DNA from: Acidobacteriota bacterium
GTDB lineage: Bacteria; Acidobacteriota; Terriglobia; Bryobacterales; Bryobacteraceae
Direction: 5' to 3'
Length of the DNA stretch: 64,000 nucleotides
Assembly: GCA_016213775.1 (NCBI GenBank)
Contig: JACQZR010000155.1
Coordinates: 1 to 64,000, forward strand
Shown here: piece after piece, positions 4,294-35,973 of the stretch
Numbering within the stretch: position 1 is the first letter of the stretch
Layout of the letters: each line of letters begins with the position of its first letter
Program-made: the position numbers and the translations under genes
Notes under the pieces: generated by a model
Databases searched by the model: none
Told to the model about the DNA's origin: nothing
Seen by the model: the letters and a program-made list of their open reading frames with translations, nothing else

Positions 4294-4908
4294 CTACTTG
4301 CGTTGGACTGCCCGGAACCACTTGGCGTGGTGCGATGCGGCCCAACCAGGTGTGACCCAGCCGCGGAGCATGGCGTTGAGCGCGCCAGGGACTACCAGGG
4401 TAGTCATGTACACGTGTACCACGATACCTCCGAGCGAGGCGACGGCCGCGAGAGGATGCGTGAGTATGGCAATCAGGCGTAGGCCGCGTGGCATCAGCTC
4501 GGGGAACCATAGCACGATGCCCGAGGCGAACAGTACGATGGCGCTTACCGACTGCACCCAGAACAGCATCTTCTGGCCGGCGTTGAAACGGCCGGATTCG
4601 GGGACTCCTGCCTCGTCGTGAATGGCGTACTTATGGCTCACCGCGAGCCAGCGGCGGTCGTCCGCGTCGATCTTCATTTGCGTCGCCCAGCGGCGAAACA
4701 TGAGAGCAAGCAGCAGCGCGAAGACCACGCCTCCAATGGGATGCCAGGCGCGGATGGTCTCGCCGCCGCCGAGCACCGAAGCGGTCCACCACATCTTGCG
4801 CGACCAGAGGGCGGTGCCGCTCAGACCCGCATAAACAAAGCTGATGGCGGTGAGCCAGTGGGTCATGCGCTCGGGGAAAGTGAAACGCTCGATGCGGGGC
4901 TTATTCAT
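4294..4908 (-). CDS. fdnI: Formate dehydrogenase cytochrome b (gamma) subunit
   Basis: Membrane cytochrome b subunit that passes electrons from the iron-sulfur subunit to the quinone pool. About 204 residues with four hydrophobic segments; histidines suited to haem b ligation lie in ERMTHWL, RAWHPIGG, ILTHPL and VVHVYMT. The start was chosen at the ATG of MNKPRIERF because it overlaps the end of the beta-subunit gene by eight bases, giving translational coupling; the longer reading adds MGQRRRTA, which is antisense-free but lies wholly inside the upstream gene. Third gene of the fdnGHI-type operon. The family assignment (FdnI/FdoI) follows from the topology, the histidines and the context. 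Confidence 0.9.
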   Translation of the reverse strand: MNKPRIERFTFPERMTHWLTAISFVYAGLSGTALWSRKMWWTASVLGGGETIRAWHPIGGVVFALLLALMFRRWATQMKIDADDRRWLAVSHKYAIHDEAGVPESGRFNAGQKMLFWVQSVSAIVLFASGIVLWFPELMPRGLRLIAILTHPLAAVASLGGIVVHVYMTTLVVPGALNAMLRGWVTPGWAASHHAKWFRAVQRK

Positions 4909-5686
4909 CGCGGTGCGCCTCCTTTGGCCCAACCTTTATGTAATGGACGAGCGCCGTGAGTAGACCTCCGAAGAAGACCGCATTGCCGAGCCACTTTACA
5001 GGCCCTTTCCATAACGACACGGTCCAGGGAATGTGCGGGTCTTTCGGCAAGCCGTAATCTTGCGGCCTGTCGGCGTGCTTCAGCACGTAGATAACGTTAG
5101 TGCCTCCCACGCCGGGCCCGTCATAGACTCCGGCTTGTGCGTGGCCGTCCGCGCGAAGCTCTTCGGCGCGCTTGCTGGCGTTGTGATGCAGTGCATCGCG
5201 TGTTCCGAACGACAGGCAGCTTGTGGGGCAGGCCTTGATGCAGCTTGGTTCGAGGCCGACTGCCACACGGTCAGAGCAGAGCGAGCACTTGTAGACCTTC
5301 TTCGTCGTGGGTGACAGGCGGGGCACGTCGAACGGGCAGCCCGTAATGCAGTAGCCGCAGCCGATGCAGTTGTCCTGGTTGAAGTCGACGATGCCGTTGG
5401 CGTTTTGGACGATTGCACCCGGGGCAGGGCAGGCCTTGATGCATCCCGCGTCGGCGCAGTGCATGCACTGATACTTGGCCATCAGCCAACTCTGCGCGCC
5501 GTTGATCTCGAGCTCATTGAATTGGATGAGGTTCCAGAAGTTGTGGGCCAGCGATGGCATCGTCTGGTACGTGTTGTTGAACACGCCCATCGTGAACTCC
5601 TGGTCGTTCCACTGCTGGCAGGCGACCTCGCAGGCTTTGCAGCCAATGCAGAGGGTGGTGTCGATGAGCTTTGCTACCTTCTGCAT
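4901..5686 (-). CDS. fdnH: Formate dehydrogenase iron-sulfur (beta) subunit
   Basis: A 261-residue ferredoxin-like subunit that relays electrons from the molybdo/tungsto-selenoprotein to cytochrome b. Four cysteine clusters are visible: CIGCKACEVAC near the N-terminus, CMHCADAGCIKACP, CIGCGYCITGCPF and CSLCSDRV...CIKACPT, which together can hold four [4Fe-4S] centres as in FdnH/FdoH. A single hydrophobic helix near the C-terminus (WLGNAVFFGGLLTALVHY) would anchor it. Its ATG overlaps the stop of fdnG (TGATG), and its stop overlaps the start of fdnI, so the three genes are translated as one unit. Confidence 0.93.
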   Translation of the reverse strand: MQKVAKLIDTTLCIGCKACEVACQQWNDQEFTMGVFNNTYQTMPSLAHNFWNLIQFNELEINGAQSWLMAKYQCMHCADAGCIKACPAPGAIVQNANGIVDFNQDNCIGCGYCITGCPFDVPRLSPTTKKVYKCSLCSDRVAVGLEPSCIKACPTSCLSFGTRDALHHNASKRAEELRADGHAQAGVYDGPGVGGTNVIYVLKHADRPQDYGLPKDPHIPWTVSLWKGPVKWLGNAVFFGGLLTALVHYIKVGPKEAHRDE

Positions 5687-8682
5687 CAGGCTTTCTCCAG
5701 GTTCACCAGGAACCCTTTGTATTCTGGCGTTCCCGAGTTGGGATCGTATGCCGACGGCGTCAGGTTGTTCACCAGCGGCCCTCTTGTCCGGCCGATGAAG
5801 CCCCAGTGGATGGGGATGCCGACTTGATAGATGGTCTTGCCTTCGACTTTCAACGGGCGGATTCGTTTGGTAACCAGCGCCGGACCTTCGACGTGACCTC
5901 GGGCGGAAGAGACCTTTACCATATCTCCACCTTTGATGCCCTTTTCTTTGGCCAGTTCTTCGGGCACTTCGACGAAGAAGTTGCTCTGCAGCTCCGCTCC
6001 TGACGCGACGTGTTTGGTCCAGTAGTGGAAGTGTTCGGTCAAACGGTAGGTGAGTGCTACGTATGGATACTTGTCGGGTGCGCCGAGCCTGTCGTTGGGA
6101 CCGGTGAATACCGGCGCCATCGGGTTGGACGAGACGTTCTTGTGAAAGGGATTCTGTACGGGTGATTCGACTGGTTCGTAGTGTTCAGGGAAGGGCCCCT
6201 CCAGCAGGTCGGCTGCGTAGAGCTTGGCTACGCCTTCGGGGAGCATGATGAAGGCCCCGTAGTCAGTTGGTTTGGCATCGCCTTTGTAGTCCGGGACGTC
6301 TCCGGTCCAGCGAGTGCCATCCCATTTGATGGGAGTGCGAGTGGGGTCCCAGCCTTTGCCCTCGGCGTCCTCGGCGGCGCGGTTATACAAGATACGCCGG
6401 TTGGCCGGCCATGACCAGGACCAGTTGGGGAAGAGACCGAGTCCGGTGGGATCTTCCTGGCCGCGGCGGGCCATCATGTTTCCGTTTTCGGTCCAGGAGC
6501 CGGCGTAGATCCAGCAGCCGCAGATGGTGCTGCCATCGTCTTTCAGCTCGCCGAAACCATTCACCTGTTTGCCAGTAGTGAGGTCGCGGCCGTTGACTTC
6601 GCGGGCGACTTCTTCGAGCGACGGATTAAAGGGATTCGCGTAGTCCCACGACATGTCGCGCAGTGGCTGGACGGCCTTGCCGCCCTCTTTCTCGTAAAGC
6701 TCCCGGACCCTGAGGAAAATGCGTGCCATGATTTCCTGGTCTGGCTTTGCATCGCCCGGCGGCGGTGCGGCGGCGCGCTTCCATTGGAGCCAGCGCGAGG
6801 AGTTGACGAAGGCGCCGTCCTTTTCGGCGAAGCATGCCGCGGGGAGCAGGAACGCCTCGGTCTGAATCTCAGACGGGTCTTTGTAGGTGGGATAGTATTT
6901 GTCGCCGAGCTTCTTTGCGTTCCAGAAGCTGGCCGTTTCGGTTTCGAAGTTTTCCACGACCACCATCCACTTGAGCTTCGAGAGGGCATCGAGCATTTTG
7001 GGAGAATTGGGTCCGCCCGCCACCGGGTTCATGCCGAAAGTGATGAAGCCTTCAATACCGCCGCGCTGCATCTTATCGAAGAAGAACCCCCAGCCGTAGT
7101 TCTCCGTCTCGCCGGGCTTGGGGATGTTGCCGTAGCCGTAGCCGTTTTCCTTGGTGGCGTGCTTGCCGTAGTAGGTCTTCAAGAGGCTCGTCATGAACTT
7201 GGGCGTGTTGCCCCAGTAGTTCATGGAATTGGGCCGTAGGGCTTTGGGGGTATTCGCTTTGAGGTAGTCGTCGAGAGTCTGATGATTGGCGCGCGGGATT
7301 TTGAGATAGCCGGGCAGGTTGTTCCAGGAGCCCATGTCAGTGGAACCCTGGATGTTGGAGTGGCCGCGCTGTGCGTTGACGCCGCCGCCGGGGCGTCCGA
7401 TATTGCCGAGCAGGAGTTGCATCATTGCCGCGGTGTGGATGAGTTGCACTGCGTGACTGTGCTGCGTCCAGCCGAGGGCGTAAAGGACCGTCCCAGACCT
7501 ATCGGGCCTGCCGGAAGCGCAGATCAGGGCCGCGGCTTTCTTGTACTCTTCGGCCGTGCAGCCGCAGATGTTAGCGACAGCCTCCGGGGTGTATCGCGCG
7601 TAGTGGCGCTTCATTAATTGAAAGACGCAGCGCGGGTTCTCCAGCGTCGCATCGACTTTAGCGTGGCCTTGCGCGTCGAGTTCGTACTGCCACGACGAGC
7701 GGTCGTAGTTCTTCTTAGTGTCGTCCCAACCGGAGAAGTGTCCTTCGGCGAAATCGAATCCGTCCTTGATGAGGAATGCGGCGTTGGTGTGCAGGCGCAC
7801 GTACTCGTCGTGATAGAGCTTGTTCTCGATGGCGTAGTGGATGATGCCGCCGAGGAAAGCGATGTCTGTACCGGCTCGCATGGGCGTGTAGGAGTCGGCT
7901 ACGGCGGCGGTGCGATTGAAGCGCGGATCGACGACGATCAACTTCGCTTTGCGCTTGCGGCGTGCTTCCATGACGAAACGGAAACCCACCGGGTGGTTCT
8001 CTGCCGGGTTGCCTCCCATCACGAGGATGACGTCGGCGTTGGCGACGTCGGTCCAGCCGTTGGTCATGGCGCCTCTGCCGAAACTTGCGGCCAAACTGGC
8101 CACCGTGGGGCCGTGTCAAAGCCGGCTTTGATTCTCGTAAGAAAGAATGCCGAGGCCGAAGCGGAATTTGCTCAGCAGGTAGTTGATCTCGTTGGTGTCG
8201 GTGCAGCCGCCGATCATGGCGATGCCGGGGAGCCTGTTGACTGTTCGTCCCTGGTCGTCTTTTTCGACGAAGGAGCGGTCGCGCGTGTCCTTAATGTGAC
8301 GGGCGATTTTGTTGATGGCGTCGTCCCAGGGGATGGGCTTCCATTCGGCTGCGCCTGGCGCGCGGTGCAGCGGCGTTGTGAGGCGCCGGTCGTTGACGAT
8401 GAATTCCTTGAGACTGATGCCCTTGGAGCAAAGGGTGCCGCGATTGATGGGGCTATCGGGGTCGCCTTCGATGTGGACGACGGCGGGCTGCACGTTACGG
8501 GACTTATCTCCCAGGGTATGGATGACGACTGAGCAGCCGACGGCGCAATAGGGGCAGACGCTGTTTGTTTGGGTAGTGCGGGCGATCTTGAGTTCGCGGG
8601 CGGCGGCGATGGCTGGAGTGAGGTCGAAGCCAAGGGCCGTGACAGCGGCGCCAGCACGGATAAGATCGCGACGGGTGATCAT
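5686..8682 (-). CDS. fdnG: Formate dehydrogenase catalytic subunit, selenocysteine-containing
   Basis: Oxidises formate to CO2 at a bis-MGD molybdenum or tungsten site. The N-terminus has a Tat signal (MITRRDLIRAGAA), then a [4Fe-4S] motif CPYCAVGC...CSKG. At residue 189 the frame holds TGA (8116-8118, minus strand), flanked by ENQSRL and HGPTVASLAASFGRGAMTN, exactly where E. coli FdnG carries selenocysteine; a stem-loop follows at once. Read through, the product is 998 residues, close to the family length (about 1015). A conventional gene caller will split it at 8116. The molydopterin-binding stretches NADVILVMGGNPAENHPVGF and GFITFGMNPV are intact. First gene of the operon; it is divergent from the serine hydrolase gene. 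Function requires SelA/B/C/D, which are not in the window. Confidence 0.94.
8087..8118 (-). promoter_or_regulatory. SECIS element: UGA codon and downstream hairpin in fdnG
   Basis: On the minus strand the TGA (8116-8118) is followed after 12 bases by a hairpin: GUGGCC (8103-8098) pairs with GGCCGC (8092-8087), one U-G wobble included, closing a five-base loop AGUUU. Bacterial SECIS elements are short stem-loops just 3' of the UGA that recruit SelB through loop residues including a GU pair. The position and the GU in the loop fit; the bulged U of the E. coli fdhF element is not obvious. The protein context makes selenocysteine decoding very likely. Confidence 0.75.
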
Positions 8683-12370: not shown

Positions 12371-13690
12371 CTACGCGATGATGTCTTTGGCGACGATGCC
12401 GTGGACGTCCGTAAGGCGGAAGTCGCGGCCACCGTACCGGTAAGTCAGCTTGGTGTGATCGAGGCCCAGCAGGTGGAGCATCGTCGCGTGCAGGTCGTGG
12501 ATGTGGATCTTGCCGTCGATGGCTGAGCCGTTCATGCCGTCGGTGGCACCGTGCCGGTAGCCGCCTTTGACTCCGCCGCCGGCCATGAACATGGAGAATC
12601 CGCGGTTGTTGTGGTTGCGGCCGTCGTTGCCCTGGCCGTTGGTGGTGCGGCCGAATTCTCCGCCCCAGACGATGAGCGTGTCCTTCAGCATGTCGCGCTG
12701 TTTCAGGTCCTGGATGAGCGCGGCGATGGGCTGGTCGATTTCGCCGGTTGTCTGACGGATGCGCTGGCGGAGGTTGGCGTGATGATCCCAGTTCCCGTGG
12801 CTGAGCTCGATGAAACGGACGCCGGCTTCGGCCATGCGGCGGGCGAGCAGACACTGGATGCCGAACTGGCGTGTGGCGGCGGTGTCGACTCCGTACATCT
12901 TCTTTATGTGGTCGGGCTCCTTACCGATGTCGAGGATGCCGGGTACGGCGGATTGCATGCGGAAGGCGAGCTCGTAGGTTTCGATGACGCCGTCGATTTC
13001 GGGATCGGTGGTTGCCTTCTTCAGGTAGTCCTGGTTGAGGGACTGGATGAGGTCGATCTGCTTCCGCTGCTCGTCGGTCTTCATCTCGGGGTTGGAGATG
13101 TTGGGGAGCTTGCCGGTGCGGGTCAAGTAGGGGGTTCCCTGGAACGCGGCGGGGAGAAAGGCGGAGCCGTAGTTCTGGGAACCACCAAGACCGTTGGGGT
13201 TGATGGTGATGTAGCCGGGGAGGTCCTGATTGTCGGTGCCGAGGCCGTAGACGGTCCATGCGCCCATCGAGGGACGGACGAAGTTGAAGCTGCCGGTGTG
13301 GAGTTCGATGGTGGCCTGCGGGTGGGCGGGCGAATCCGTCACCATGCCGTTGAGGAGACATAACTCGTCGGCGACCTTACCGATGTTGGGAAGCAGTTCG
13401 GAGATGTGGAGTCCGCTGGTGCCGCACTGTTTGAACTCGAACGCAGGGGCGGTGAGGTTCTTGGACGATTCTGCCGCTTTGACGAGCTCGGGGTTGTAAT
13501 CGAAAGTCTCGTACTGGCTGGGCGCGCCCTGCATGTAGAGGAAGATGACGCGCTTGGCCTTCGGCGCGTAGTGAGGCTGCTTGGGCGCCAACGGGCTGCG
13601 GTAAGCGGTGGCAGCCTGGGTGCTGATTCCGGCGAATGCGGCGTAGCCGAAGCCGGCAGACAGAGTTTGAAGCAATTGACGGCGGTTCAT
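12371..13690 (-). CDS. DUF1501 secreted sulfatase-like protein
   Basis: A 439-residue protein of the DUF1501 family, which has an alkaline-phosphatase/sulfatase-like fold. It begins with a Tat-like signal (MNRRQLLQTLSAGFGYAAFAG), followed by the family signatures KRVIFLYMQGAPSQYETFDY, TGSFNFVRPSMGAW and IVWGGEFGRTTNGQG, and ends in RYGGRDFRLTDVHG. The catalytic activity of the family is not established. It is 24 bases downstream of the DUF1549/DUF1553 cytochrome gene; this pairing recurs in Planctomycetes and Acidobacteria, implying that the two exported proteins act together, perhaps on complex polysaccharides. Confidence 0.9.
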   Translation of the reverse strand: MNRRQLLQTLSAGFGYAAFAGISTQAATAYRSPLAPKQPHYAPKAKRVIFLYMQGAPSQYETFDYNPELVKAAESSKNLTAPAFEFKQCGTSGLHISELLPNIGKVADELCLLNGMVTDSPAHPQATIELHTGSFNFVRPSMGAWTVYGLGTDNQDLPGYITINPNGLGGSQNYGSAFLPAAFQGTPYLTRTGKLPNISNPEMKTDEQRKQIDLIQSLNQDYLKKATTDPEIDGVIETYELAFRMQSAVPGILDIGKEPDHIKKMYGVDTAATRQFGIQCLLARRMAEAGVRFIELSHGNWDHHANLRQRIRQTTGEIDQPIAALIQDLKQRDMLKDTLIVWGGEFGRTTNGQGNDGRNHNNRGFSMFMAGGGVKGGYRHGATDGMNGSAIDGKIHIHDLHATMLHLLGLDHTKLTYRYGGRDFRLTDVHGIVAKDIIA

Positions 13691-13714
13691 TTCCTTGTCT
13701 CCCTCTACTTGGTG

Positions 13715-16222
13715 TTAACTACGATACCGGAATTCAGCGCTGGCGAAAAGGGCCTGATAGAGCCGGGCCCAGGCGGTCTTCTCGTCGTTGTGTTCGGAGG
13801 TGTTGGAGCGCATCGCGTCGATGAATGAAAGGGAACGGTCAATTTCGGCCTGGGTAGCGTCGCGCGAAAGGACTTCACGATAGACACGCAGGACGCGGTC
13901 GCGGCCGGTGGTTTGCGCGTCGGCAAGGAGTTTCTCGGCGGCCGACTTGGACTGCGTAATTGCGAAGTTGGAGTTGACAAGGAAGAGCGCCTGGGTGGGC
14001 ACTGTGGTAACTTCGCGGCGGCCCTTGGGTTCGCTGGGTTCGGGGAAGTCGAAGGTCTCGTACATGGCTGGAAGGAAGTTGCGGAGGACCGGCACATAGA
14101 CGCTGCGCGAATCCATTTTGACAGCGTAATCTTCGGGGTAGGTGCCACGGCCGCGGCCAAGGTCGAAACCGCGGACAAAGCCCATGGTGGGGGATTCGGC
14201 GGGCCGCTGAAGGTTGAGCTTGCCGGCGACCATCATGATGGAATCGCGGATGGCTTCCACTTCCAGGCGATTGCGGTTCTGACGCCAGAAGAGGTTGTTG
14301 TCGGGGTCGGCTTTGGCGTTGCGGTCGTTGTAGGCGGTGCTCATGCGGTAGGACTTGGAGAGGACGACTTCACGGACAACCTTCTTCACTGACCAGCCCT
14401 GTTCCATGAAGCGAACGGCGAGGTAATCGAGGATGTCCTGATGGGTGGGCTGTTCGCCCATCTTGCCGAAGTTGTCCACCGTCGGGACGATGCCGCGACC
14501 GAAGGTGTGGAGCCAGACGCGGTTGACCATGACGCGTGCGGTGAGCGGGTTATCCTTGCGTGCAAGCCACTTGGCGAGTTGGAGGCGGCCACTATCTTTG
14601 GGCCCGATCTCAAAGCCGGAATCGTTGGGGCGGCTGACCACTTGCACGAAGCCGCGGGGGACTTTGCGGCCAAGGTCCTTGACGTCGCCCTTGATGTGGA
14701 TTTCGCAATCGTTGGATTCGCCTTCGCGGGCAGCCATGGCGAGGTCTTTGGGGAGCGGGAACTTGTCCATCTGCGCGAGGACGACGTTAGCTTCCTGACG
14801 GAGCTTGGCGGCAACCGCAACCTGCTGGCCGGGCGCGATGGGCTGGCCCTTCTTGAGATTGCGGCGGGCCTGTAGGAGCGCCGGGCTGCGGCCGCTACGG
14901 GAATCCTCGAGCTTCTTCATGAGCTCGTTCCATTCGGCGATTTTGGCGGGGTCCTTGATCCAGGCGTTGGCCTGCTCTTCCGGGGTGAGCTTCAACCTGG
15001 CGAGGAGGTTGATGTCGAAGTAGGAGGCGTTGTCGCGAGGGCGGCGGCGGAGTCCGCTGAGCATTTCGGTGCTGCGGAAGATGCCGGCCATAGCGTAGTA
15101 GTCGGCTGTGGGGATGGGATCGAATTTATGGTCGTGGCAGCGGGCGCAGCCGACGGTGATCCCCATGAAGGCTTTCGATACGGAGTGGATTTGTTCGTCG
15201 ACAACGTCCATGCGGAAGACGCTGGGATTCTGTTCGATCAGGTCGTGGGAGCCGAGGGAGAGAAAGGCAGTGCCGGTGAGCTGTTCATTGTACTGTTTGT
15301 CGTTGGAGGCGGGGAGGAGATCGCCCGCGATCTGCTCCATGACGAATTTGTCGTAGGGCTTATCGGCATTGAAAGAGTCGATGACGTAGTCGCGGTAGCG
15401 CCAGGCATAGGGCATGATGTAGTTGCGGCCGCGGCCGACGGATTCGGCGTAGCGGGCGACATCGAGCCAGTGGCGGCCCCAGCGCTCTCCGTACTGCGGC
15501 GAGGCGAGGAGGCGGTCGACGAGCTTGGTGTAGGCGTCGGGATGCTTGTTATTGAGGAAGGCGGTGACTTCGGCCGCGGTTGGTGGGAGACCGGTGAGGT
15601 CCATGGTGACGCGCCGGATGAGGGTGGCTTTGTCCGCTTCAGGGGATGGGGTGAGGCCTTTGGATTCGAGGCGGGCGAGGAGGAGGCGGTCAACGGGCTG
15701 GGTGGACCACTTGGCGTTGCGCACTTTAGGAGAGGCGGGTTTGACGGGGTTTTGGAAGGCCCAGTATTGACGGCCCTTCTCGATGTCGACCTTGGATTCT
15801 TTCCATTCGGCGGCGGCGCCGACCCGGGGATCGGGGGCGCCCATTGCGACCCACTTTTCGAGGTCGGCGATGGCGGCGTCGGGGAGTTTGCCCGCCGGAG
15901 GCATCTTCCGGCCTTCGTGGCGGACGGCCTTAATAAGGATGCTCTCATTTGGGTTGCCAGGGATGAGCGCTGGTCCATTGGCGCCGCCTTTCATGAGGCC
16001 GGCTTTAGTGTCGAGGAAGAGGCCGCCCATGGCGTTCTTGGTGCCGCTGCCATGACAGGCATAGCAGTTCTTGGCGAGCACTGGGCGGATCTTGGCTTCG
16101 AAGAATTCCAACTGTTCGGCGGTGGGTTTGTCAGCGGGCTTGGCGGCATCGGGCTTTTGCTGATTCCAGGCGAGCGAAGCCCCAAAGAGAACACTAATCG
16201 AACAGAGGGTTTTCCAGCGCAT
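13715..16222 (-). CDS. PSCyt1/DUF1549/DUF1553 cytochrome c-domain protein
   Basis: An exported protein of about 835 residues. After a signal peptide (MRWKTLCSISVLFGASLAW) comes a cytochrome c domain with the haem-binding motif NCYACHGSG (CxxCH), then DUF1549 (VDRLLLARLESKGLTPSPEA, YGERWGRHWLDVARYAES, CARCHDHKFDPIPT with a second CxxCH) and C-terminal DUF1553 (LARKDNPLTARVMVNRVW, FDFPEPSEPKGRREVTTVPT). ATG 16220-16222 was chosen over the upstream ATG because it places the positively charged n-region directly before the hydrophobic core. First gene of a two-gene unit with the DUF1501 gene. Electron transfer linked to extracellular polymer breakdown has been suggested for the family; no substrate can be read here. 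Confidence 0.9.
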   Translation of the reverse strand: MRWKTLCSISVLFGASLAWNQQKPDAAKPADKPTAEQLEFFEAKIRPVLAKNCYACHGSGTKNAMGGLFLDTKAGLMKGGANGPALIPGNPNESILIKAVRHEGRKMPPAGKLPDAAIADLEKWVAMGAPDPRVGAAAEWKESKVDIEKGRQYWAFQNPVKPASPKVRNAKWSTQPVDRLLLARLESKGLTPSPEADKATLIRRVTMDLTGLPPTAAEVTAFLNNKHPDAYTKLVDRLLASPQYGERWGRHWLDVARYAESVGRGRNYIMPYAWRYRDYVIDSFNADKPYDKFVMEQIAGDLLPASNDKQYNEQLTGTAFLSLGSHDLIEQNPSVFRMDVVDEQIHSVSKAFMGITVGCARCHDHKFDPIPTADYYAMAGIFRSTEMLSGLRRRPRDNASYFDINLLARLKLTPEEQANAWIKDPAKIAEWNELMKKLEDSRSGRSPALLQARRNLKKGQPIAPGQQVAVAAKLRQEANVVLAQMDKFPLPKDLAMAAREGESNDCEIHIKGDVKDLGRKVPRGFVQVVSRPNDSGFEIGPKDSGRLQLAKWLARKDNPLTARVMVNRVWLHTFGRGIVPTVDNFGKMGEQPTHQDILDYLAVRFMEQGWSVKKVVREVVLSKSYRMSTAYNDRNAKADPDNNLFWRQNRNRLEVEAIRDSIMMVAGKLNLQRPAESPTMGFVRGFDLGRGRGTYPEDYAVKMDSRSVYVPVLRNFLPAMYETFDFPEPSEPKGRREVTTVPTQALFLVNSNFAITQSKSAAEKLLADAQTTGRDRVLRVYREVLSRDATQAEIDRSLSFIDAMRSNTSEHNDEKTAWARLYQALFASAEFRYRS

Positions 16223-16383
16223 GATTACTTTATATATCACAGCGTGCCTTGGAAAGTTGCGGTGGGGAGTGAAATTTCAGTTTCATTCCGACCGTAGTGG
16301 GATTGTGACGTCCTGACGCAGCTTCCCCATCTCGATGATTGGGTTGCCTCTTGCAGCTACAGAATCATCTTTACACCCAACAA

Positions 16384-23960: not shown

Positions 23961-24488
23961 GTGAACAACCAACCCAAGCGGCAACTGGACGCACGGGATT
24001 CCGTTTCCAGGTCCGGCGCACGCGAAACCGCGCCGAAAAAAGATCCGCGCGCGGTCAGTCTCGAATCGGCCATGGCACGCCACGGCTACGCTGCCGATGC
24101 GTTAATCGAGATTCTGCACCACGCACAAAAACTCTATGGGCACCTTGATAAGCCCATGCTCCTCAAGATCGCCCGCAGGCTCAAGCTACCACCCAGCCGC
24201 GTCCTGGGCGTCGCCACCTTCTATCACCTGTTCCGGTTGACGCCCCCGGACCGCCATAATGCCACGGTCTGCATGGGCACCGCCTGTTATGTCGCCGGTG
24301 CCGCCGAACTGCTCGAGTTTCTTGAGAAGCGCTGCAAATCCGCTCCCAACGGAGGGGTGAAAGTCGGCTGCGGGCGCTGCATCGGTTCATGCGGCCTTGC
24401 GCCGCTGGTGGTCTACGACGGCGAAACCGTGGCCGACGTCACCCGCCGCAAACTCGAAAAGCTCCTCGACGAAGCAGGTGCCAAATGA
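23961..24488 (+). CDS. hoxE: HoxE, NuoE-like [2Fe-2S] subunit of bidirectional hydrogenase
   Basis: A 175-residue NuoE/HoxE thioredoxin-like subunit that links the diaphorase to electron acceptors. The ligands of its [2Fe-2S] cluster are visible as CMGTAC and, about 40 residues later, CGRCIGSC. The sequence ADALIEILHHAQKLYGHL and VLGVATFYHLFRL are HoxE/NuoE signatures. The GTG at 23961 is taken; the 30-residue lead before MARHGYAAD has no strong ribosome site, so ATG 24072 is possible. First gene of hoxEFUYHW; it ends in a four-base ATGA overlap with hoxF. Only 48 bases separate it from the divergent esterase start. Confidence 0.9.
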   Translation: MNNQPKRQLDARDSVSRSGARETAPKKDPRAVSLESAMARHGYAADALIEILHHAQKLYGHLDKPMLLKIARRLKLPPSRVLGVATFYHLFRLTPPDRHNATVCMGTACYVAGAAELLEFLEKRCKSAPNGGVKVGCGRCIGSCGLAPLVVYDGETVADVTRRKLEKLLDEAGAK

Positions 24489-26122
24489 TGATTGAAGAGC
24501 TGAACGAAGCTGCCGAACGCGAGCGCGACCGGCAGAACCAATTCGAAGATCGTATCCTCTGCTGCACTGTGGCCGGGTGCCATTCCTGTGGATCGAAGCC
24601 TATCCGCGCGGCCATTGCGCGCGAGATCGAAGCCCAGGGCCGGCAAGATGAAGTCGAACTCTGCGGTACTGGCTGCCTTGGTCTGTGCGGGGAAGGCCCG
24701 CTCGTCAAATCGCGTGCCGCCAACGCCATCTACGCCCGCGTCCAACCCGGCGACGCCGCCGACCTTGTCGCAGGACGTCACGATATTCTCACTTCCAAGC
24801 GTGTGGACAACCTCCCGTTCTACGCCGGACAACACCGTCTCATCCTCTCCAACTCCGGCGTCGCCGACCCCGAGAGCGTCTTCGATTACATCGCTGCCGG
24901 GGGTTACGGTGCGCTCTCCAAAACCATCACCGAGATGGAGCCGAACGAGGTGGTGGAAGAGATCAAACGCAGCGGACTGCGCGGACGTGGCGGCGCAGGC
25001 TATCCCGCCGGCGTCAAATGGGAGCTGGTCGCCCGCCAGAACTCCCCGGTCAAATACGTGGTCTGCAACGCGGACGAGGGCGACCCCGGAGCGTTCATGA
25101 ACCGTAGCGTGCTCGAAGGCGATCCCCACCGAGTGTTGGAAGGGATGGCCATCGCGGGCTGGGCCGTCGGAGCTTCGCAAGGCTACATCTACGCGCGCGG
25201 CGAATCGCCCCTGGCCATCGAACGCCTCACCACCGCCTTGCAACAGGCCGAACGCGAAGGCCTACTCGGCCACCGCGTGCTGGGCCACAAGTTCCAGTTT
25301 CGTATCGACCTCCGCATCGGCGCGGGCGCTTATGTCTGCGGCGAGGAGACTTCGCTCATCGCCTCCATTGAAGGACAACGCGGCCAGCCCCGTCCGCGAC
25401 CACCCTACCCGCCCGAGCGCGGTCTTTGGGAGCAACCGACGCTCATCAACAACGTCGAAACCTTCGCCGCCATCCCTAGCATTATTCTTAACGGCGCCGA
25501 TTGGTACCGCAAAATCGGCTCTCCCAACAGCCCCGGCACCAAGGTGTTTGCCCTTGCCGGACGCATCGTGCACACCGGTCTGGTGGAAGTTCCGCTCGGC
25601 ACCACGCTGCGCAAGGTGCTCTTTGAAATGGGCGGCGGCATCGCCGGCGGCCATCAGTTCAAGGCTGCGCAAACCGGAGGTCCCGCGGGAGGCTGCATCC
25701 CGTCTGAACACCTCGACCTGCCGCTCGACTATGACTCCCTCCGCACCATCGGCTCAATGATGGGTTCCGGCGGACTGATCGTGCTCGACAGCACTACCTG
25801 TATGGTCGACATGGCCCGCTTCTTCATGGAATTCTGCATGGACGAATCCTGCGGCAAGTGCACTCCGTGCCGCGCCGGAACCGTCCAGATGCACCACCTG
25901 CTACACCGCATCACCACCGGCCAAGGGACTGAATCCGACGCCGCCACGCTGGAAGAGCTGGCCGATCTGCTCAAGGAAACCAGCCTCTGCGGATTGGGCC
26001 AGGCCGCTCCCAACCCGGTGATCAGTACACTGCGCCACTTCCGCGGCGAATACATCGCCCACATCCGCGAGCATCGCTGTCCGGCGGGTTCGTGCGAAAT
26101 GCGAAGGGAGGTCACCGTATGA
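24485..26122 (+). CDS. hoxF: HoxF, NADH-binding diaphorase subunit
   Basis: A 545-residue flavoprotein that exchanges electrons with NAD(H). The N-terminus has a ferredoxin-like [2Fe-2S] motif (CHSCGS...CGTGCLGLC), followed by NuoF-like FMN/NADH-binding segments (GLRGRGGAGYPAGVKWELV, CNADEGDPGAFMNRSVLEGD, GAGAYVCGEETSLIASIEG) and the [4Fe-4S] motif ESCGKCTPCRAGT...CGLGQAAPNP. Length and order match the NuoF-like subunit of group 3d hydrogenases. Coupled to hoxE (ATGA) and to hoxU (ATGA). Confidence 0.95.
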   Translation: MMIEELNEAAERERDRQNQFEDRILCCTVAGCHSCGSKPIRAAIAREIEAQGRQDEVELCGTGCLGLCGEGPLVKSRAANAIYARVQPGDAADLVAGRHDILTSKRVDNLPFYAGQHRLILSNSGVADPESVFDYIAAGGYGALSKTITEMEPNEVVEEIKRSGLRGRGGAGYPAGVKWELVARQNSPVKYVVCNADEGDPGAFMNRSVLEGDPHRVLEGMAIAGWAVGASQGYIYARGESPLAIERLTTALQQAEREGLLGHRVLGHKFQFRIDLRIGAGAYVCGEETSLIASIEGQRGQPRPRPPYPPERGLWEQPTLINNVETFAAIPSIILNGADWYRKIGSPNSPGTKVFALAGRIVHTGLVEVPLGTTLRKVLFEMGGGIAGGHQFKAAQTGGPAGGCIPSEHLDLPLDYDSLRTIGSMMGSGGLIVLDSTTCMVDMARFFMEFCMDESCGKCTPCRAGTVQMHHLLHRITTGQGTESDAATLEELADLLKETSLCGLGQAAPNPVISTLRHFRGEYIAHIREHRCPAGSCEMRREVTV

Positions 26123-26835
26123 AGGTAAAAACGCTCGAAATTGACGGCAAGCTCGTCACCGGCGGTCCGGAGGAAACCATCTTCCAGGCCGCCTGGAACA
26201 ACGGCATCCGCATCCCGCGGCTCTGCCACATCGGGGGCCTCTCCGACATCGGCGCATGCCGCCTCTGCCTCGTCGAGGTGGAGGGCCAAAACCGCCTTCT
26301 CGCCTCCTGCCTTACGCCTGTTGAGGAGGGCATGAAGGTACGCACCAACACCGAGTCCCTGCGCCGTTACCGCAAACTCCTGATCGAACTCCTGTTCGCC
26401 GAACGCAACCACGTCTGCGCTGTCTGCGTAGCCAACGGTGCTTGTGAGCTTCAGGATCTCGCTATGTCCCTGGGCGTGACGCACATTCGCGTCCCGTCCC
26501 AACTGCCCCACCTCCCCGTCGACATCAGCCACGATCGCTTCGGCGTCGATCACAACCGCTGCGTCCTCTGTTCGCGCTGCCTCCGCGTTTGCGACGAGGT
26601 GGAAGGCGCGCACACCTGGGACATTGCCGGGCGCGGCCGCAAGTCCATGATGGTCTGCGACCTCGGCGAACCCTGGGGCGTTTCCCAGTCCTGCACCGGC
26701 TGCGGAAAATGCGTCCAGGTCTGCCCCACCGGCGCGCTCTTTCTCAAAGGAAAGACCGTCGGCGAAATGCGCAAAGACCGGTCCTTCCTCAACTTCATCG
26801 TCACCGCAAGGGAGAAGCACATATGGATTCGATAG
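26119..26835 (+). CDS. hoxU: HoxU, NuoG-like iron-sulfur subunit
   Basis: A 238-residue electron-relay subunit. The N-terminal plant-type [2Fe-2S] domain shows PRLCHIGGLSDIGACRLCLV with a later Cys in SCLTPV; next come the NuoG-type C/H motif (HVCAVCVANGACELQDLA) and two ferredoxin [4Fe-4S] motifs, CVLCSRCLRVCDE and CTGCGKCVQVCPT. It carries electrons between the diaphorase and the hydrogenase small subunit. A good ribosome site (GGGAGG) precedes the ATG, which overlaps the hoxF stop. Confidence 0.94.
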   Translation: MKVKTLEIDGKLVTGGPEETIFQAAWNNGIRIPRLCHIGGLSDIGACRLCLVEVEGQNRLLASCLTPVEEGMKVRTNTESLRRYRKLLIELLFAERNHVCAVCVANGACELQDLAMSLGVTHIRVPSQLPHLPVDISHDRFGVDHNRCVLCSRCLRVCDEVEGAHTWDIAGRGRKSMMVCDLGEPWGVSQSCTGCGKCVQVCPTGALFLKGKTVGEMRKDRSFLNFIVTAREKHIWIR

Positions 26836-27359
26836 TTCGTAAGCCCAAGATCGCCACGGTGTGGCTGGGCGGCTGTTCCGGATGCCACATGTCCTTCCTC
26901 GATCTCGACGAACGCCTCATCGAACTCGCCTCCAAAACCGAGATCTGTTACTCGCCGGTCATCGACATCAAAGAGTTCCCGCGCGTCGACTTCGCCCTCG
27001 TCGAAGGCGCGGTCGCCAACGAGGATCACCTCCACGAGATCCACCACATCCGCGAACGCTGCCGCGTCCTCATTGCCTTTGGCGATTGCGCCGTCACCAG
27101 CAACGTCACCGGAATGCGCAATCTCTTTCCGCTCCAGGATCTGATGCGCCAGGTCTACAAAGACGAAGCCTCCCCAAGCGCCGGCATCCCATCCGGCGGC
27201 GTGGTTCCCAAACTCCTGGAACGTGTCCGCCCGCTGCATGAAGTAGTGCATGTCGATCACTTTCTCCCCGGCTGCCCACCCTCCGCGGATGCTATCTGGA
27301 ACCTGCTGATGGAAGTCATCGCAGGCAATCCGCCGAACGAGCCAAGGAGGTTCGGATGA
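26823..27359 (+). CDS. hoxY: HoxY, [NiFe] hydrogenase small subunit
   Basis: A 178-residue small subunit carrying the proximal [4Fe-4S] cluster: WLGGCSGCHMSFLDLDE holds the first two cysteines, AFGDCAVTSNV the third and HFLPGCPPSADAIW the fourth. It has no Tat leader, consistent with a cytoplasmic group 3 enzyme. The ATG lies inside the last codons of hoxU (13-base overlap). Followed after 36 bases by hoxH. Confidence 0.94.
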   Translation: MDSIVRKPKIATVWLGGCSGCHMSFLDLDERLIELASKTEICYSPVIDIKEFPRVDFALVEGAVANEDHLHEIHHIRERCRVLIAFGDCAVTSNVTGMRNLFPLQDLMRQVYKDEASPSAGIPSGGVVPKLLERVRPLHEVVHVDHFLPGCPPSADAIWNLLMEVIAGNPPNEPRRFG

Positions 27360-27395
27360 CGTTTTCATCGGGTTCCCCTCGGAGGCTCAAATAAC

Positions 27396-28814
27396 ATGGC
27401 ACAACGAATTCTCATCAACCCCGTCTCGCGCATTGAAGGACACGCCAAGGTCTCCATCTTTGTCGACGACCACGGTAAGGTGCAATCCACGCAACTCCAC
27501 ATCGCCGAATTCCGCGGCTTTGAGAAGATCTGCGTCGGCCGCCCTTTCCACGAAATGCCCGGTCTGATGTCGCGCGTCTGCGGCATTTGCCCGGTGAGCC
27601 ACATCGTCGCCAGCGCCAAAGCCTGTGACGAGTTGCTCAGCGTGGCCCCACCTCTGGCTGCCGTGCTCCAGCGCCGTCTCATCAACGACGCGCAACTGCT
27701 CCAGTCGCACGCCCTCAGCTTCTTCCACCTGTCCTCGCCGGATCTTTTGCTAGGCTTTGACGCTCCACCGGAATCGCGCAATGTCTTTGGCGTTCTGGAG
27801 AAGCATCCGGACCTCGCCCGCCGTGGCATCCGGTTGCGCCAGTTCGGCCAGACCGTCATCGAGCGCATCACAGGCAAGCGGATTCATCCCAACTGGGGTG
27901 CGCCCGGTGGCGTCCTGTCTAAAGTGTCGGAGGAAATGCGCGACGAGCTCCTCGCCTGGATTCCCGAGGCTCGCGAAACCTGCAAAGCCGCAATGGATCT
28001 GTGGAAGGGCATTGCGGACCGCTTCACCGCCGAAGCCGAGCACATGGGTAAATTCGATTCGCTTTTCCTTGCCACTGTCGATGATGACGGCGTTGTCGAC
28101 TACTACAACGGCAAACTCCGTATCGTCGATGCCCAGGGTGCAATCGTCGCCGATGGCCTGGACCCGAAGGAGTATTACGAATACATCGGGGAGGCCTGCG
28201 AGACTTATTCGTTCATGAAGTTCCCCTACTACAAACCGCTCGGCTATCCGGCGGGGATGTATCGCGTGGGTCCGCTCGCGCGCCTCAACGTTGCTACGTC
28301 GATGGGCACTCCGTGGGCCGACGCCGAACTCGCCGAGTTCAAACAACGCGGCACTGTCAATGAGTCGTTCGCCTACCATCCGGCGCGTCTGGTTGAAATG
28401 ATCGGCGCCGCCGAACGGATCGAGCGCATTCTGGAAGACCCCGAGCTTCTCACTGAGACCACACGCTCGCGTGCGTTCCTCAACCGGCAGGAAGGCGTCG
28501 GCGCGTCGGAAGCCCCGCGCGGCACGCTCTTTCATCACTACCGCGTCGATTCCAACGGTCTGATGGAGCATGCCAACCTGCTGATCGCCACCGCCAACAA
28601 CAACCTCGCCATGCAGCGCGCCGTCCAACAGACCGCCGAGCAATACGTTCTACCGCAGAAGCTGGAAGAAGGGATGCTCAATCGCGTGGAAGCTGTCATC
28701 CGCTGCTACGACCCGTGCCTGTCGTGCTCCACGCATGCCCTCGGGCAGATGCCGCTCATCCTGCAACTGCACTCGCTCACCGGCGAAATCATCGACGAGG
28801 TGCGCCGCATGTGA
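27396..28814 (+). CDS. hoxH: HoxH, [NiFe] hydrogenase large subunit
   Basis: The 472-residue catalytic subunit that binds the NiFe(CN)2CO site. The L1 motif SRVCGICPVSH and the C-terminal L2 motif DPCLSCSTHALG supply the four nickel-ligating cysteines. Residues after STH (ALGQMPLILQ onward, about 25 residues) form the extension normally removed by a maturation protease, the product of the next gene. Together with hoxEFUY the family is the NAD(P)-linked bidirectional group 3d hydrogenase. The last codons, ATGTGA, overlap the start of hoxW. Confidence 0.96.
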   Translation: MAQRILINPVSRIEGHAKVSIFVDDHGKVQSTQLHIAEFRGFEKICVGRPFHEMPGLMSRVCGICPVSHIVASAKACDELLSVAPPLAAVLQRRLINDAQLLQSHALSFFHLSSPDLLLGFDAPPESRNVFGVLEKHPDLARRGIRLRQFGQTVIERITGKRIHPNWGAPGGVLSKVSEEMRDELLAWIPEARETCKAAMDLWKGIADRFTAEAEHMGKFDSLFLATVDDDGVVDYYNGKLRIVDAQGAIVADGLDPKEYYEYIGEACETYSFMKFPYYKPLGYPAGMYRVGPLARLNVATSMGTPWADAELAEFKQRGTVNESFAYHPARLVEMIGAAERIERILEDPELLTETTRSRAFLNRQEGVGASEAPRGTLFHHYRVDSNGLMEHANLLIATANNNLAMQRAVQQTAEQYVLPQKLEEGMLNRVEAVIRCYDPCLSCSTHALGQMPLILQLHSLTGEIIDEVRRM

Positions 28815-30718: not shown

Positions 30719-33388
30719 TTACCACTTACTTCCAGGACTCCCGTCTGGCTGGCCCTTCGGCAGCAGCATCGTCCAATCGCTCAGAAACTGCGTTTCCAGC
30801 TCTTCCGGTTCGTCGGTGGAAAGCAGCAGCATCCGCCCATCCCGCGCGATGGTGCCGATCTTGCCGTAGCCTGACATCTGCGCAGTCACCGAAGCGAACT
30901 GGACCACCGGCGGGCCCAGTTCCGGCATGCGTCCTGGAGCCAACTGCACGCTGTGACAAACGATCGCGTCCTTGAGGCGTGGCACACCGCACAGCTTCCG
31001 GCCGTCATGAGAGAAGAACGGACCGGCCAGGTAGAAGTTGAAAGCGCCGCCGGTGGCAGGTTCCGCTTGTGGTTCGGGGCGCCACGGTACGAATCTTGCC
31101 ATAGCCCCGCCCAGTGGTACCAGAAGCCAATTCCCGTCTGGAGTAAAACGGGCCTTGGGACCAGGGAAAGGCTCACTACGAGTCGCAAGCCAGGTTTCCG
31201 GACGCGACGTTCCCGTGCCGCTCGTAGACAGAACCAGGAGGCTCGTTCCCGCGATTTGAGACGGCCCAAACAGCAGGTACCGGCCGTCCCTGGAAATTTC
31301 CATCAGCGTGAGTGGTGCCTCCGACCGGCCAACCGGCTCTGGCCGGCTGACCCCCTCGATAGGATGCCGAACGGTCTGCCACGATCCGTCGGCCTGCTCC
31401 GCCTGGTAGTAGAGCATCCGGCTGTCCGGGGTCCACGCCAGACCCTGTCCCACGTTGTCCCAAGGCCCCGTCAGCCGCCGCGAGTTGCCGCTGCGCGCAT
31501 CGTATAGCGTCACCCCTTTCCTCGGATACCCTGTGATGGCGGCGACCTGCTTCTCATCCGGCGACAATAGGATCTCGTTCGAGGCGATCCGGTCTGCCAG
31601 AGTCGCCAGCACCGTCCCATCCATCGCATGCCAGCGGATGCGGAAGACCGGCGCGGCCATGAAGTTTCGCCGGAAAACCAACCGCCCATTCTCGCTCACC
31701 TCAAACGTCGGCCTCCGCTGAGGGAAATACGCCCCGACCCCGTCCACCAATTGCACGGGCTCGCCGATCTTTTGTCCCGTGACCGGATCGACGGCAACCG
31801 CCATCAGCCGTGGAGACTCCTCGGGTGTGTAGAACATATGCCACTGCCCGCTTTGCGGATGGCGCGCGAATTGGACGCGTAATCCCAGGCGCATCAGTTC
31901 CACGGGGCTTCCGCCTTTCACCGAGCCGCGGTAGAGCGTCTTGCGTTCCGCAGGCGGGCCGGCGGTAAAAACAAAATCGCTCCCGGCGGGAAGCAGCGTG
32001 GGGTTCAGTATTACATGGCCCGGCGGCAATCGGATGAGCAGTTCCCTGCTCGCACCCGTCGCCAGGTTGAGGTGATGCAATTTTGCGGACGAGACAAAAA
32101 CAATCTCTCCCGAACGGAGCGATCCTCGCCAGGCGGCGCCTCCCGGCTCTGGCGCCGTGGCCACCTCGCGGACCTCCGATGTCGCCACCGGCATGATGCA
32201 AAGCTTGCCTTGCCGGAAGAATCCGATCGCGGAAGAATCGCCCGACCAGAACGGCCAAAACGCCCCCTGGGTGCCGGGAAGCGTCCGCGGCAGGAGTTCA
32301 GAAAAATATCGCAGCGACAGCCCGTCCAGAGACATACTCACCATCGCGGCCCCATCGGGGCTTATTGGGGAAGTCGTCCGGCTCCCATCCACGTTGAATC
32401 TCAACGGTGGCGGCGGATTGCGCCGTACTCCGGCTCGCAGCCACAAGAAAGCGAATGCCACCGCCAAAACGGCCGCGGCGCCCACCAGCGCCATCCACAA
32501 AACCGGCCGGCCCACAGGCGCCAGTGCCGGGGTGCTCTCCACCATCGGAGCGCGCAACTCCAGCACCACATCGCGCATCGACTGCCAGCGGTCCTCCGGA
32601 TCCTTCGCCAGGCATCGCCGCACCAGCCGCTCCAGCCACGCCGGCGTCACCGGCTTCACCGCCATCGGCACCGGATCCATCGACAGAATCGCCCCCACCA
32701 GGCTCGAGTAGCTCTTCCCCTCAAACGCCTTCCGCCCCGTCACCATCTCGTACAGCACCGCGCCGAAGGCCCAGATATCGCTCCGCGCATCGGCTTCTTT
32801 GCCTTCAAACTGCTCCGGTGCCATGTACTGCGGGGTCCCCAGCACCGTGCCTTCCGTGGTTAGCGATTTGACGATAGTGGCATCCGTCGGTCCCGGCTTA
32901 GCCGTCGATTTGGCCAACCCGAAGTCGAGCACCTTCACCCCATCGCGCGTCAGCATGATGTTGCCCGGCTTGATGTCTCGGTGCGTCACGCCAGCCCGAT
33001 GCGCCCGGTCCAACGCATCGGCCGTCTGCTGCGCATAGGCAACGGCTGTCTCCAGCGGAAGCGCCCCACGTCCGATGCGTGCTTCCAGCGTCTCTCCCTC
33101 CAGATACTCCATCACCATGTAGCCCCCGACACCTTCCTGATTGCCGATGTCGTACAGCGTGCAAATATTCGGATGATTCAGCGAAGCCACCGCGCGCGCC
33201 TCGCGCTCGAATCGCGCCCGCAACTCTTCACGCTGAGCGATATGCGCTGGCAGCACCTTGATGGCAACCGTCCGGTCGAGCCGCGTATCGCGGGCTTTGT
33301 ACACCTCGCCCATGCCGCCCGCCCCAATCGGAGCGACGATCTCGTACGGACCCAGTTTGTCGCCAGCCGTTAGAGCCACGGGATTCAT
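30719..33388 (-). CDS. Membrane Ser/Thr protein kinase with C-terminal propeller sensor (copy 1)
   Basis: An 889-residue PknB-type kinase. The N-terminal kinase domain shows the glycine loop [11 protein letters not shown], Lys in VAIKVLP, the catalytic [10 protein letters not shown] and DFGLA, and the activation segment ending [10 protein letters not shown], so all key residues are present. One transmembrane helix ([20 protein letters not shown]) leads to a ~550-residue periplasmic TolB/WD40-like propeller ([24 protein letters not shown]). This layout is common in Acidobacteria and presumably senses envelope signals. ATG overlaps the stop of copy 2 by four bases; its kinase half is almost identical to that copy, its sensor is not. 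Confidence 0.92.
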
Positions 33389-35973
33389 TTCTCCAGCCGC
33401 GCCGCATAATTCAGCACCACCACCATCGGCGCCTCCTGCGCATCGCCAGCCGGCTCCAGCACGAGAAACCGCTTCCCGTCACGCGCCGGCGCAAAGGAAC
33501 TCGCCCTGCTCACACGGAACAATGTCTCTGCTTTCCCCACCCGGACCACCGACTGCTGCAAGCCTATGGCGGCCGACATTACCTTGCGCTCCGCACCGTA
33601 CCAATACAACTCTTTGCCGTCAGCTCGCCAGTGGGGGTTGCTACCCCCGGCGACCAACCACTTGCCGCTACGCTCCGGAAATCCTTGCACATAGATTTCT
33701 GGTCGCCCCGATTCCTGAGACGAGTAGGCTACCCACCGCCCGTCCGGTGAGAACGCACCAAAGCCCTCGGCCGCCCTCGTCTTCAGATATTCCCGCGGTT
33801 TCTGTTCCCCTTCTATCGGAAAGGCCACAATGTCCACGCTGCCCAGTAAGAGGAACTTCCCGTCCGGTGACACCGAGCTGATAGTGCCGCCGTTGTCGAG
33901 GTCGTGTCCAAGTTCTTCCTCCTCTCCGGCCCCATCGCTCGATTTCCGAAACAAGCCTCTCGTCTTGGCGTAGTAGAGATACTTCCCATCCGGCGACCAT
34001 CGAGGAGCGACACCGCCCTTGAACGTAATACGAGTGCGCGAGCCATTCGTCAGGTCCATCACCCAAACATCGGACTCCCGCCGGCTTGCCCCTGTCGAGT
34101 AAGCAACCCTCTTGTCATCGTCCGACAGGCTGATAAAACTCGTGGATACCACCGGCTCTCCGATTTTCTCCAGTATCCTCCCCGTGCGGTCGCACCATGC
34201 GAACTGACTCAACGGCTCTTTCTCGGGCTGCGAGTAGAACAATGTCCCGTTTCCCGATACGGAAAAATCCGAGTAGCGGTTGGCAGTGCCCAAGCGAAGC
34301 GAATCGGCGACTCTGGCCACCTCCCCCGTCATCCGCGGCGGGTCCAATTGCAGCCGTTGTGCCATCAGCGATCCATCCTCCTGGACATACAGAAGCCGGC
34401 CGGAGTAGGGATCATAGACTCCGCGATATCTTGTCGACATGAGGAATGTCGCTGGTTTGCCGTCCAGAGAGCCGATCGCTAAGCCGGATCTTTTCTCGTC
34501 CTTATTCCGAGTCAGGTAAAGGAACCGTTTGCCGCCGGGGAGAAACTGCGGATACGTATGACCCGTTTCCCCTTCTGCCTCGTTGATCCGTGTCACTGGC
34601 GAGGGCGCACCACCCGAGGCCGAGATACGAAACAGACCCACCCTCTCCTCGCCAAACAGAATCTGCCCGGCTTCATTCCACGAACCACCGCGGCCAGGCC
34701 CGGCGTCGCAGAGATTCGTGGGAGCGCCTCCACCCAGATCGATCCGTTTCAACTTCCCTTGGGCCACAAACCCAATGGACTTACTGTCCGGCGACCAGAA
34801 CGGACGGGATGCTCCATCCGTCCCGGAGACTGGTTGCGAATTCAGCGAATCCAGTGACCGCACGTATAATAATCGTTCGCGCCCCGTCGCGGCCACGAAT
34901 GCGAGTTTCCGGCCGTCCGGCGAGATGGCCGAACCCCCTACTCCCAGAAAGCTTTGGATAGCTGCCCAATTGGTCCCTTCCGGCGGCGTCACATCCAGAT
35001 GAACCGCACCCGCCTGATCCACTGGCCTGCTGCCTCTCCACGCCCAGGCGCCCCAGCCCAACACTGCCGCCAGCAACGCCGCGGCCGCGATTCCCCACGC
35101 CCAGCGGTTCGCTCCACCCGATGCCGGTGTCGTTTCCCGTGGCGGCGTTGCCAAGTCCAGAAAAACGTCCCGCATCGATTGATAGCGTTCCTCGGGGTCC
35201 TTTGCCAGACACCGCCTCACCAGCCTCTCCAGCCATGCGGGCGGGAACGGCTGCACCGCCATCGGCGCAGGATCGGCCGAAAGGATCGCTCCCACCAGGC
35301 TCGAATAGCTCTTCCCCTCGAACGCCTTCCGCCCCGTCACCATCTCGTACACCACCGCGCCGAACGCCCAGATGTCACTCCGCGCATCGGCTTCCTTGCC
35401 TTCAAACTGCTCCGGTGCCATGTACTGCGGGGTCCCCAGCACCGTGCCTTCCGTGGTCAGCGATTTGACGATAGTGGCATCCGTCGGTCCCGGCTTAGCC
35501 GTCGATTTCGCCAAGCCGAAGTCGAGCACCTTCACCCCATCGCGCGTCAGCATGATGTTGCCCGGCTTGATGTCGCGATGCGTCACCCCAGCCCGGTGTG
35601 CCCGGTCCAACGCATCGGCCGTTTGCGTGGCATACCGTAAAGCAGCATCCACCTCCAAGGGTCCACGATCGATCCGACCCGCCAGCGTCTCGCCTTCCAG
35701 ATACTCCATCACCATGAAGGCCGTGCCGTCCTGCTCGCCGATGTCGTACAACACGCAGATGTTCGGATGATTCAGCGAAGCCACCGCGCGCGCCTCGCGC
35801 TCAAACCGCGCCCGCAGATCCTCGCGTTTGGCAATGTGTTCCGGCAACACCTTAATCGCGACCGTCCGCTCCAGTCGCGAATCCCGCGCTTTGTACACCT
35901 CCCCCATGCCGCCCGCCCCAATCGGAGCGAGAATCTCGTACGGACCTAGCTTGTCGCCAGTAGTGAGAGGCAT
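33385..35973 (-). CDS. Membrane Ser/Thr protein kinase with C-terminal propeller sensor (copy 2)
   Basis: An 862-residue paralogue, first gene of the two-kinase unit. Kinase motifs are intact ([51 protein letters not shown]). The stretch from [10 protein letters not shown] to [19 protein letters not shown] is nearly identical to copy 1 in both protein and DNA (for example 32821-32960 versus 35419-35558). A membrane helix ([22 protein letters not shown]) precedes a TolB-type propeller ([32 protein letters not shown]). The overlap ATGA with copy 1 means they are co-translated. Substrates unknown. Confidence 0.92.

Follow-up and report, generated by a model that had tools for sequence, protein, structure and literature searches.

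A formate dehydrogenase operon of canonical FDH-N type with a predicted in-frame selenocysteine codon in an acidobacterium

Selenoproteins have been on record in the Acidobacteria for some time. Passages of a 2006 report (PMC1794560) give three selenoprotein families and four selenoproteins for the phylum and name FdhA and SelD as the selenoproteins that occur most widely, a ranking that a section of PMC5029168 repeats for formate dehydrogenase alpha and SelD. For Occallatibacter riparius, also of the Acidobacteriota, an excerpt of a 2025 paper mentions three known selenoprotein genes (PMC12013277). Because selenoproteins have been reported in Acidobacteria since 2006, the locus described here is a further case of a known arrangement. 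To judge by its sequence, it belongs to the canonical FDH-N selenoproteins, here in a soil acidobacterium whose nearest named relatives are Bryobacterales, and the arrangement itself is well known.

The window (the whole stretch of DNA that was analysed, 64,000 nucleotides) carries on its minus strand an operon of three genes, fdnG (5686..8682), fdnH (4901..5686) and fdnI (4294..4932). The product of fdnG, the FDH-N alpha subunit, matches TIGR01553 over nearly its full length (residues 10-997, 1373.8 bits against a cut-off of 814.2). With phmmer it matches 1kqf_A, the major subunit of a nitrate-inducible formate dehydrogenase that we take to be that of E. coli, with 1141.6 bits over residues 10-998. 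The iron-sulfur beta subunit encoded by fdnH has 261 amino acids (TIGR01582, 358 bits, cut-off 334.7; PF09163, Form-deh_trans), and the cytochrome b gamma subunit encoded by fdnI has 212 amino acids if it starts at TTG 4932 or 204 if it starts at ATG 4908 (TIGR01583, 165.9 bits, cut-off 115.85; PF01292). Each subunit exceeds its NCBIfam cut-off (FDH-N alpha, FDH beta, FDH gamma), and the Pfam domains agree. The make-up of an FDH-N complex is found in the operon, with an Fe-S beta subunit that has a C-terminal transmembrane segment and a cytochrome b gamma subunit. An earlier note on this DNA had stated that the three genes overlap, and they do: fdnG and fdnH share base 5686, while the overlap of fdnH and fdnI is 32 nt if fdnI starts at TTG 4932 and 8 nt if it starts at the in-frame ATG 4908. 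A putative Tat-type N-terminal signal (8584..8682, minus strand; read from the translation, its end being a guess) includes RRDLIRAG at residues 4-11, presumably a twin-arginine motif.

Other genes of the window were recorded in passing. On the plus strand, positions 23961-28814 hold NuoE/NuoF/NuoG-like, small-subunit-like and [NiFe]-hydrogenase large-subunit genes (NuoF and the hydrogenase by Pfam domains, the rest read by eye), a set that resembles an NAD-linked (Hox-type) hydrogenase. On the minus strand, a DUF1501 gene adjoins a PSCyt1/PSCyt2/PSD1 gene at 12371-16240, a pairing known from planctomycetes. Two neighbouring large proteins with serine/threonine kinase domains, one of them also with WD40-like repeats, are encoded at 30719-35973 on the same strand.

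The minus-strand frame from 8682 to 5686 contains a single internal TGA (8118..8116) and ends with a TGA stop. If the internal codon is read as selenocysteine (Sec), the product has 998 residues and Sec is residue 189; both this length and the position of the TGA between ENQSRL and HGPTVASL are as the earlier note had described them. In the alignment, U189-H190 of FdnG stand opposite X-H of 1kqf_A (Sec at the metal-ligand position, then His), and HGPTVASL is common to both proteins, so the selenocysteine context of E. coli FdnG that had been claimed for this site holds. The fdnGHI operon almost certainly encodes an FDH-N type formate dehydrogenase, bound to the membrane and facing the periplasm, in which UGA 189 is read as Sec. 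This reading draws on gene structure, homology, codon conservation, hairpin covariation and the presence of selA, selB, selC and selD, all computed here.

Known families also suggest how the codon would be decoded, where the enzyme would lie, how its metal would be bound and which path its electrons would take. SelD would make selenophosphate and SelA would convert Ser-tRNA-Sec to Sec-tRNA-Sec, which SelB would bring to the ribosome while gripping an mRNA hairpin at positions 16-32 (counting the U of UGA as 1) via U17 and the loop bases G23/U24. Sec189, next to His190, would then be a ligand of the Mo (or W) in the bis-MGD cofactor. Electrons would travel by way of the Fe-S clusters in FdnG and FdnH to FdnI, the cytochrome b, and from there to the quinone pool.

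Among the alternatives, the one that survives best accepts that Sec is inserted and holds that the enzyme is inactive or works without canonical sulfuration by FdhD; we regard it as possible, though rather unlikely. Excerpts of PMC10609526 state that active FDHs in E. coli depend critically on fdhD and fdhE, and that fdhD is nearly always near fdh operons. A search of the 98.5% complete draft genome gave no TIGR00129 match at E <= 0.001 (the control matched in 8 of 14 genomes), so the genome-encoded FdhD that maturation of the E. coli type requires was not found in this draft. Because E. coli formate dehydrogenases need FdhD, activity is not assured. When the fetched fdnG stretches of 39 relatives (11-20 kb, several cut by a contig end) were searched by tblastn with E. 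coli FdhD and the two homologues found with it, FdhD was absent from all 28 stretches from the family and present in two, both from outside it (2 of the 11 other phylum members).

The second maturation factor was followed through the neighbouring genes. ORFs from the 39 relatives and the window were clustered and the 25 largest clusters (each with at least 8 regions) listed. An FdhE-like gene alone stands out among them, occurring in 29 of the 40 regions and, in 18 of the 28 family relatives, behind fdnI; the other large clusters lie, by position, on fdnGHI or on other frames of these genes. No FdhE-like gene was found beside the operon of the window by this clustering, and E. coli FdhE as a tblastn query (E <= 0.01) matched in the stretches of 28 of the 39 relatives and nowhere in the window. 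A higher figure obtained with ORF queries, 36 of 39 relatives, is inflated and set aside, since several of those ORFs extended from stop to stop across fdnH or fdnI and their match in the window falls on fdnH. At the place after fdnI where those 18 relatives have the FdhE-like gene, the window encodes a 1327-aa NHL-repeat protein (4266-283, minus strand). Against an inactive enzyme stands the operon itself, since conserved and undamaged fdnGHI genes speak for activity. Moreover, an fdhD could lie in a genome gap, be unlinked or be very divergent, the relatives having been covered only near fdnG. A tentative and somewhat doubtful proposal would be that Bryobacteraceae make an active Sec-containing FDH-N without FdhD, either because some other protein sulfurates the Mo-bisMGD of FdnG or because none is needed. 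The missing FdhD is the only part of this locus that a specialist might want to follow.

It is very improbable that the TGA really terminates translation or is a scar of sequencing or mutation, which would make fdnG a pseudogene or two genes. A mechanical ORF list does cut fdnG in two, giving frames of 188 aa (8682-8116) and 805 aa (8103-5686), and the local fold of the sequence itself is unremarkable. Against this, the homologue alignment proposed in the earlier note shows TGA at codon 189 in all 153 distinct FdnG loci read and a Cys codon in none of them, so that TGA here is more than chance. These loci remained after removing 9 that duplicate others from 162 fetched; eight of the GTDB loci coincide with family loci. 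In the family, 51 of 121 genomes (our own included) have an FdnG match covering the site, and TGA is present in 51/51 (G080 and G103, with C-terminal FdnG fragments only, were left out of this count). In the phylum sample, TIGR01553 matches at E <= 1e-100 in 43 of 396 genomes. TGA occupies the site in 30 of 30 fetched loci, the window itself being one of them, and the remaining 13 genomes each have one TGA listed in the piece spanning the site, which was not read individually. The GTDB scan gave TGA in 80/80 loci (the best 80 of 593 confirmed stretches); the nearest named FdnG relative among these 80 is that of the Bryobacterales MAG UW1SPNA014, at 80%. E. coli MG1655 fdnG, fetched by accession, also has TGA at this site. 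Identity to two FdnG copies of the same genus is alike before and after the codon (73% and 80% for L030, 77% and 76% for L031). For annotation, this means that fdnG needs recoding, since it may otherwise be called as two fragments.

The hairpin after the codon also speaks against a stop or scar. In bacteria, the SECIS is a stem-loop within about 16-37 nt of the UGA whose apical loop has a G close to its beginning. The candidate here is a stem of seven pairs at 16-32 (8103-8087 of the window, minus strand), which begins 12 nt past the UGA and carries the apical loop G23 U24 U25 at 8096-8094 and U17 at 8102. The earlier note had placed a hairpin directly after the TGA, and comparison with relatives upholds it through covariation and loop conservation. 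Support for this putative SECIS comes from covariation and not from folding energy: taken alone, the sequence is no more stable than its shuffles (z +0.17; 105 of 200 are at least as stable). Rfam at gathering scores reports only one tRNA in the window (tRNA-Pro by ARAGORN) and no SECIS family at the hairpin, and the hairpin was therefore tested by alignment.

The alignment holds 80 sequences (51 from the family, 29 from the phylum), 76 of them distinct. Pairing is seen in 96.8% of 532 cells, and the covariation score is 0.379 against a mean of 0.146 for shuffles, which ignore kinship and none of which (0/500) reaches it. Cells with double changes number 60, compared with 21.7 in shuffles, and there are 10 further pair types compared with 7.9 (one shuffle in 500 reaches 10); the number of pairs changed on both sides is two, no higher than in shuffles. 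Slid registers are 27-57% paired, none exceeding 57%. Pair 18-30 holds in all 76 distinct sequences, as GC, CG, AU, UA, GU or UG, and pair 19-29 in 75; pair 17-31 is broken in 15 of the 76, and positions 15 and 33, which might form an eighth pair, do not match in the window. Position 17 is U in 153/153 loci because the Val codon requires U there. Codon 22-24 is AGT in 122 of the 153 distinct loci, GGT in 30 and GGC in one. Ser is encoded at this codon by 67 of the 80 family and phylum genes, invariably as AGT (67/67, where the Ser codon usage of the individual genes predicts 4.8); protein constraint does not explain this choice. The hairpin of E. coli fdnG lies in the same register, and U17, G23 and U24 are, we assume, the bases that SelB contacts in E. 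coli fdhF.

The possibility that UGA is read as an amino acid other than Sec, by a near-cognate tRNA or under a reassigned code, is more improbable still and can be set aside, given that fdnG itself ends with TGA, that a full Sec pathway with a tRNA-Sec of anticodon tca is present and that the solved structure 1kqf has Sec (X) here.

With UGA 189 read as Sec, a decoding pathway is implied, as the earlier note had argued in proposing a search for sel genes. All four were found in the assembly (11.0 Mb in 314 contigs, 98.48% complete, 4.6% contamination as listed), each above its curated cut-off: tRNA-Sec (selC) on contig C312 (77.6 bits, cut-off 47; anticodon tca by ARAGORN), SelB on C267 (379.6 bits, cut-off 242.25), SelA on C174 (493.9 bits, cut-off 267.9) and SelD on C118 (349.7 bits, cut-off 125). 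The controls for tRNA-Sec, SelB, SelA and SelD match in 14, 14, 4 and 14 of 14 genomes at E <= 0.001, so many because related families match, but exceed the cut-off in only 5, 2, 1 and 2. As the contamination of the assembly is not zero, the kinship of the sel genes was checked. Among the 10 other members of the genus (the only group searched for these two proteins), SelB has matches of 62-70% in eight and SelA of 60-67% in nine. In the family sample, the best other match is 68% for SelD and 79% for FdnG, both in the same genus. The matches of 60-70% for SelA, SelB and SelD within the genus argue against contaminant contigs; tRNA-Sec is also found in the same-genus genomes G042 and G098.

Compared with the bacterial Sec-decoding trait as a whole, all four genes are present here, but on four separate contigs. 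A search with our own SelA, SelB and SelD (tblastn) and ARAGORN found no local sel cluster in the window, nor in the fdnG neighbourhoods of 38 of the 39 relatives. In the remaining stretch, from another family of the same class (L254, genome G512), selD, selA, selB and tRNA-Sec stand together beside fdnGHI as a compact selenium island.

SelD appears to be a selenoprotein in its own right. The gene (C118, 30600-31625; minus strand of the fetched stretch L024, 1417-2442) carries a TGA in frame at residue 15, at the place where 3u0o, the nearest solved SelD structure and one that we take to be from E. coli, has a Cys motif. A strong hairpin follows the TGA (-21.2 kcal/mol, z -3.84). This resembles the selenoprotein form of SelD, with Sec at the active-site Cys. 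The TGA in fdnG together with the TGA and hairpin in selD thus suggests at least two selenoprotein genes in the genome. Among 102 SelD matches in the family, 83 have one internal TGA and 19 have no stop, although two of these 19 (G056 and G069) do not reach the site.

The Sec trait is common in the phylum, with losses. We found tRNA-Sec in 97 of 121 family genomes at E <= 1e-8 and in 236 of 396 phylum genomes at E <= 1e-10. The family figure includes four genomes whose best match is under 60 bits. At the family threshold the control matches in 5 of 14 named genomes, three of them bacteria other than E. coli, which means that a match of about 50 bits may come from another tRNA; at the phylum threshold it matches in 2 of 14. 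Strict E filters can also lose true tRNA-Sec. The earlier note had called the trait patchy in the phylum. This stands as far as losses in some groups are concerned (genus label g79 has one genome with and 12 without tRNA-Sec among those listed, a listing that leaves out 140 no-match phylum genomes), and does not stand if patchy is taken to mean rare, given the 236 of 396.

Within the family, tRNA-Sec was found in 46 of the 51 FdnG genomes and in 51 of the 70 others, which have no FdnG match covering the site. Since these 51 keep tRNA-Sec, FdnG alone does not keep the trait, and FdnG is likely not its sole client in the family. In 36 of them SelD has one internal TGA, in 10 it has none and in five no SelD was found (these are counts of internal TGAs, whatever their place within SelD). 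In the phylum sample, tRNA-Sec accompanies FdnG in 37 of 43 genomes. At these same thresholds it was not found in five family genomes with TGA-containing fdnG (G006, G046, G062, G077 and G102) and in six phylum FdnG genomes; in two further TGA-fdnG genomes, G053 and G096, the match is only 50-54 bits. The TGA-fdnG genomes without tRNA-Sec are drafts, 65-97% complete, and the filters are strict; the absences were not explained individually. Fisher tests on these co-occurrence counts (p 0.003, 0.049 and 0.0001) take no account of kinship, and no conclusion here rests on them.

Together, these results point to probable selenium-dependent formate respiration in a Bryobacterales lineage of the uncultured type. 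Set beside FDH-N of E. coli (FdnGHI; PDB 1kqf), the operon differs in having no FdhD found in its genome and no FdhE-like gene beside it, in a one-base overlap of fdnG and fdnH where E. coli MG1655 has a 12-base gap, and in the SECIS stem pairs, which are not those of E. coli fdnG. The likeness extends to the three subunits in the same order, a leader that we take to be of the Tat type, TGA/Sec at the equivalent position and the putative SECIS bases U17 and G23/U24 in the same register.
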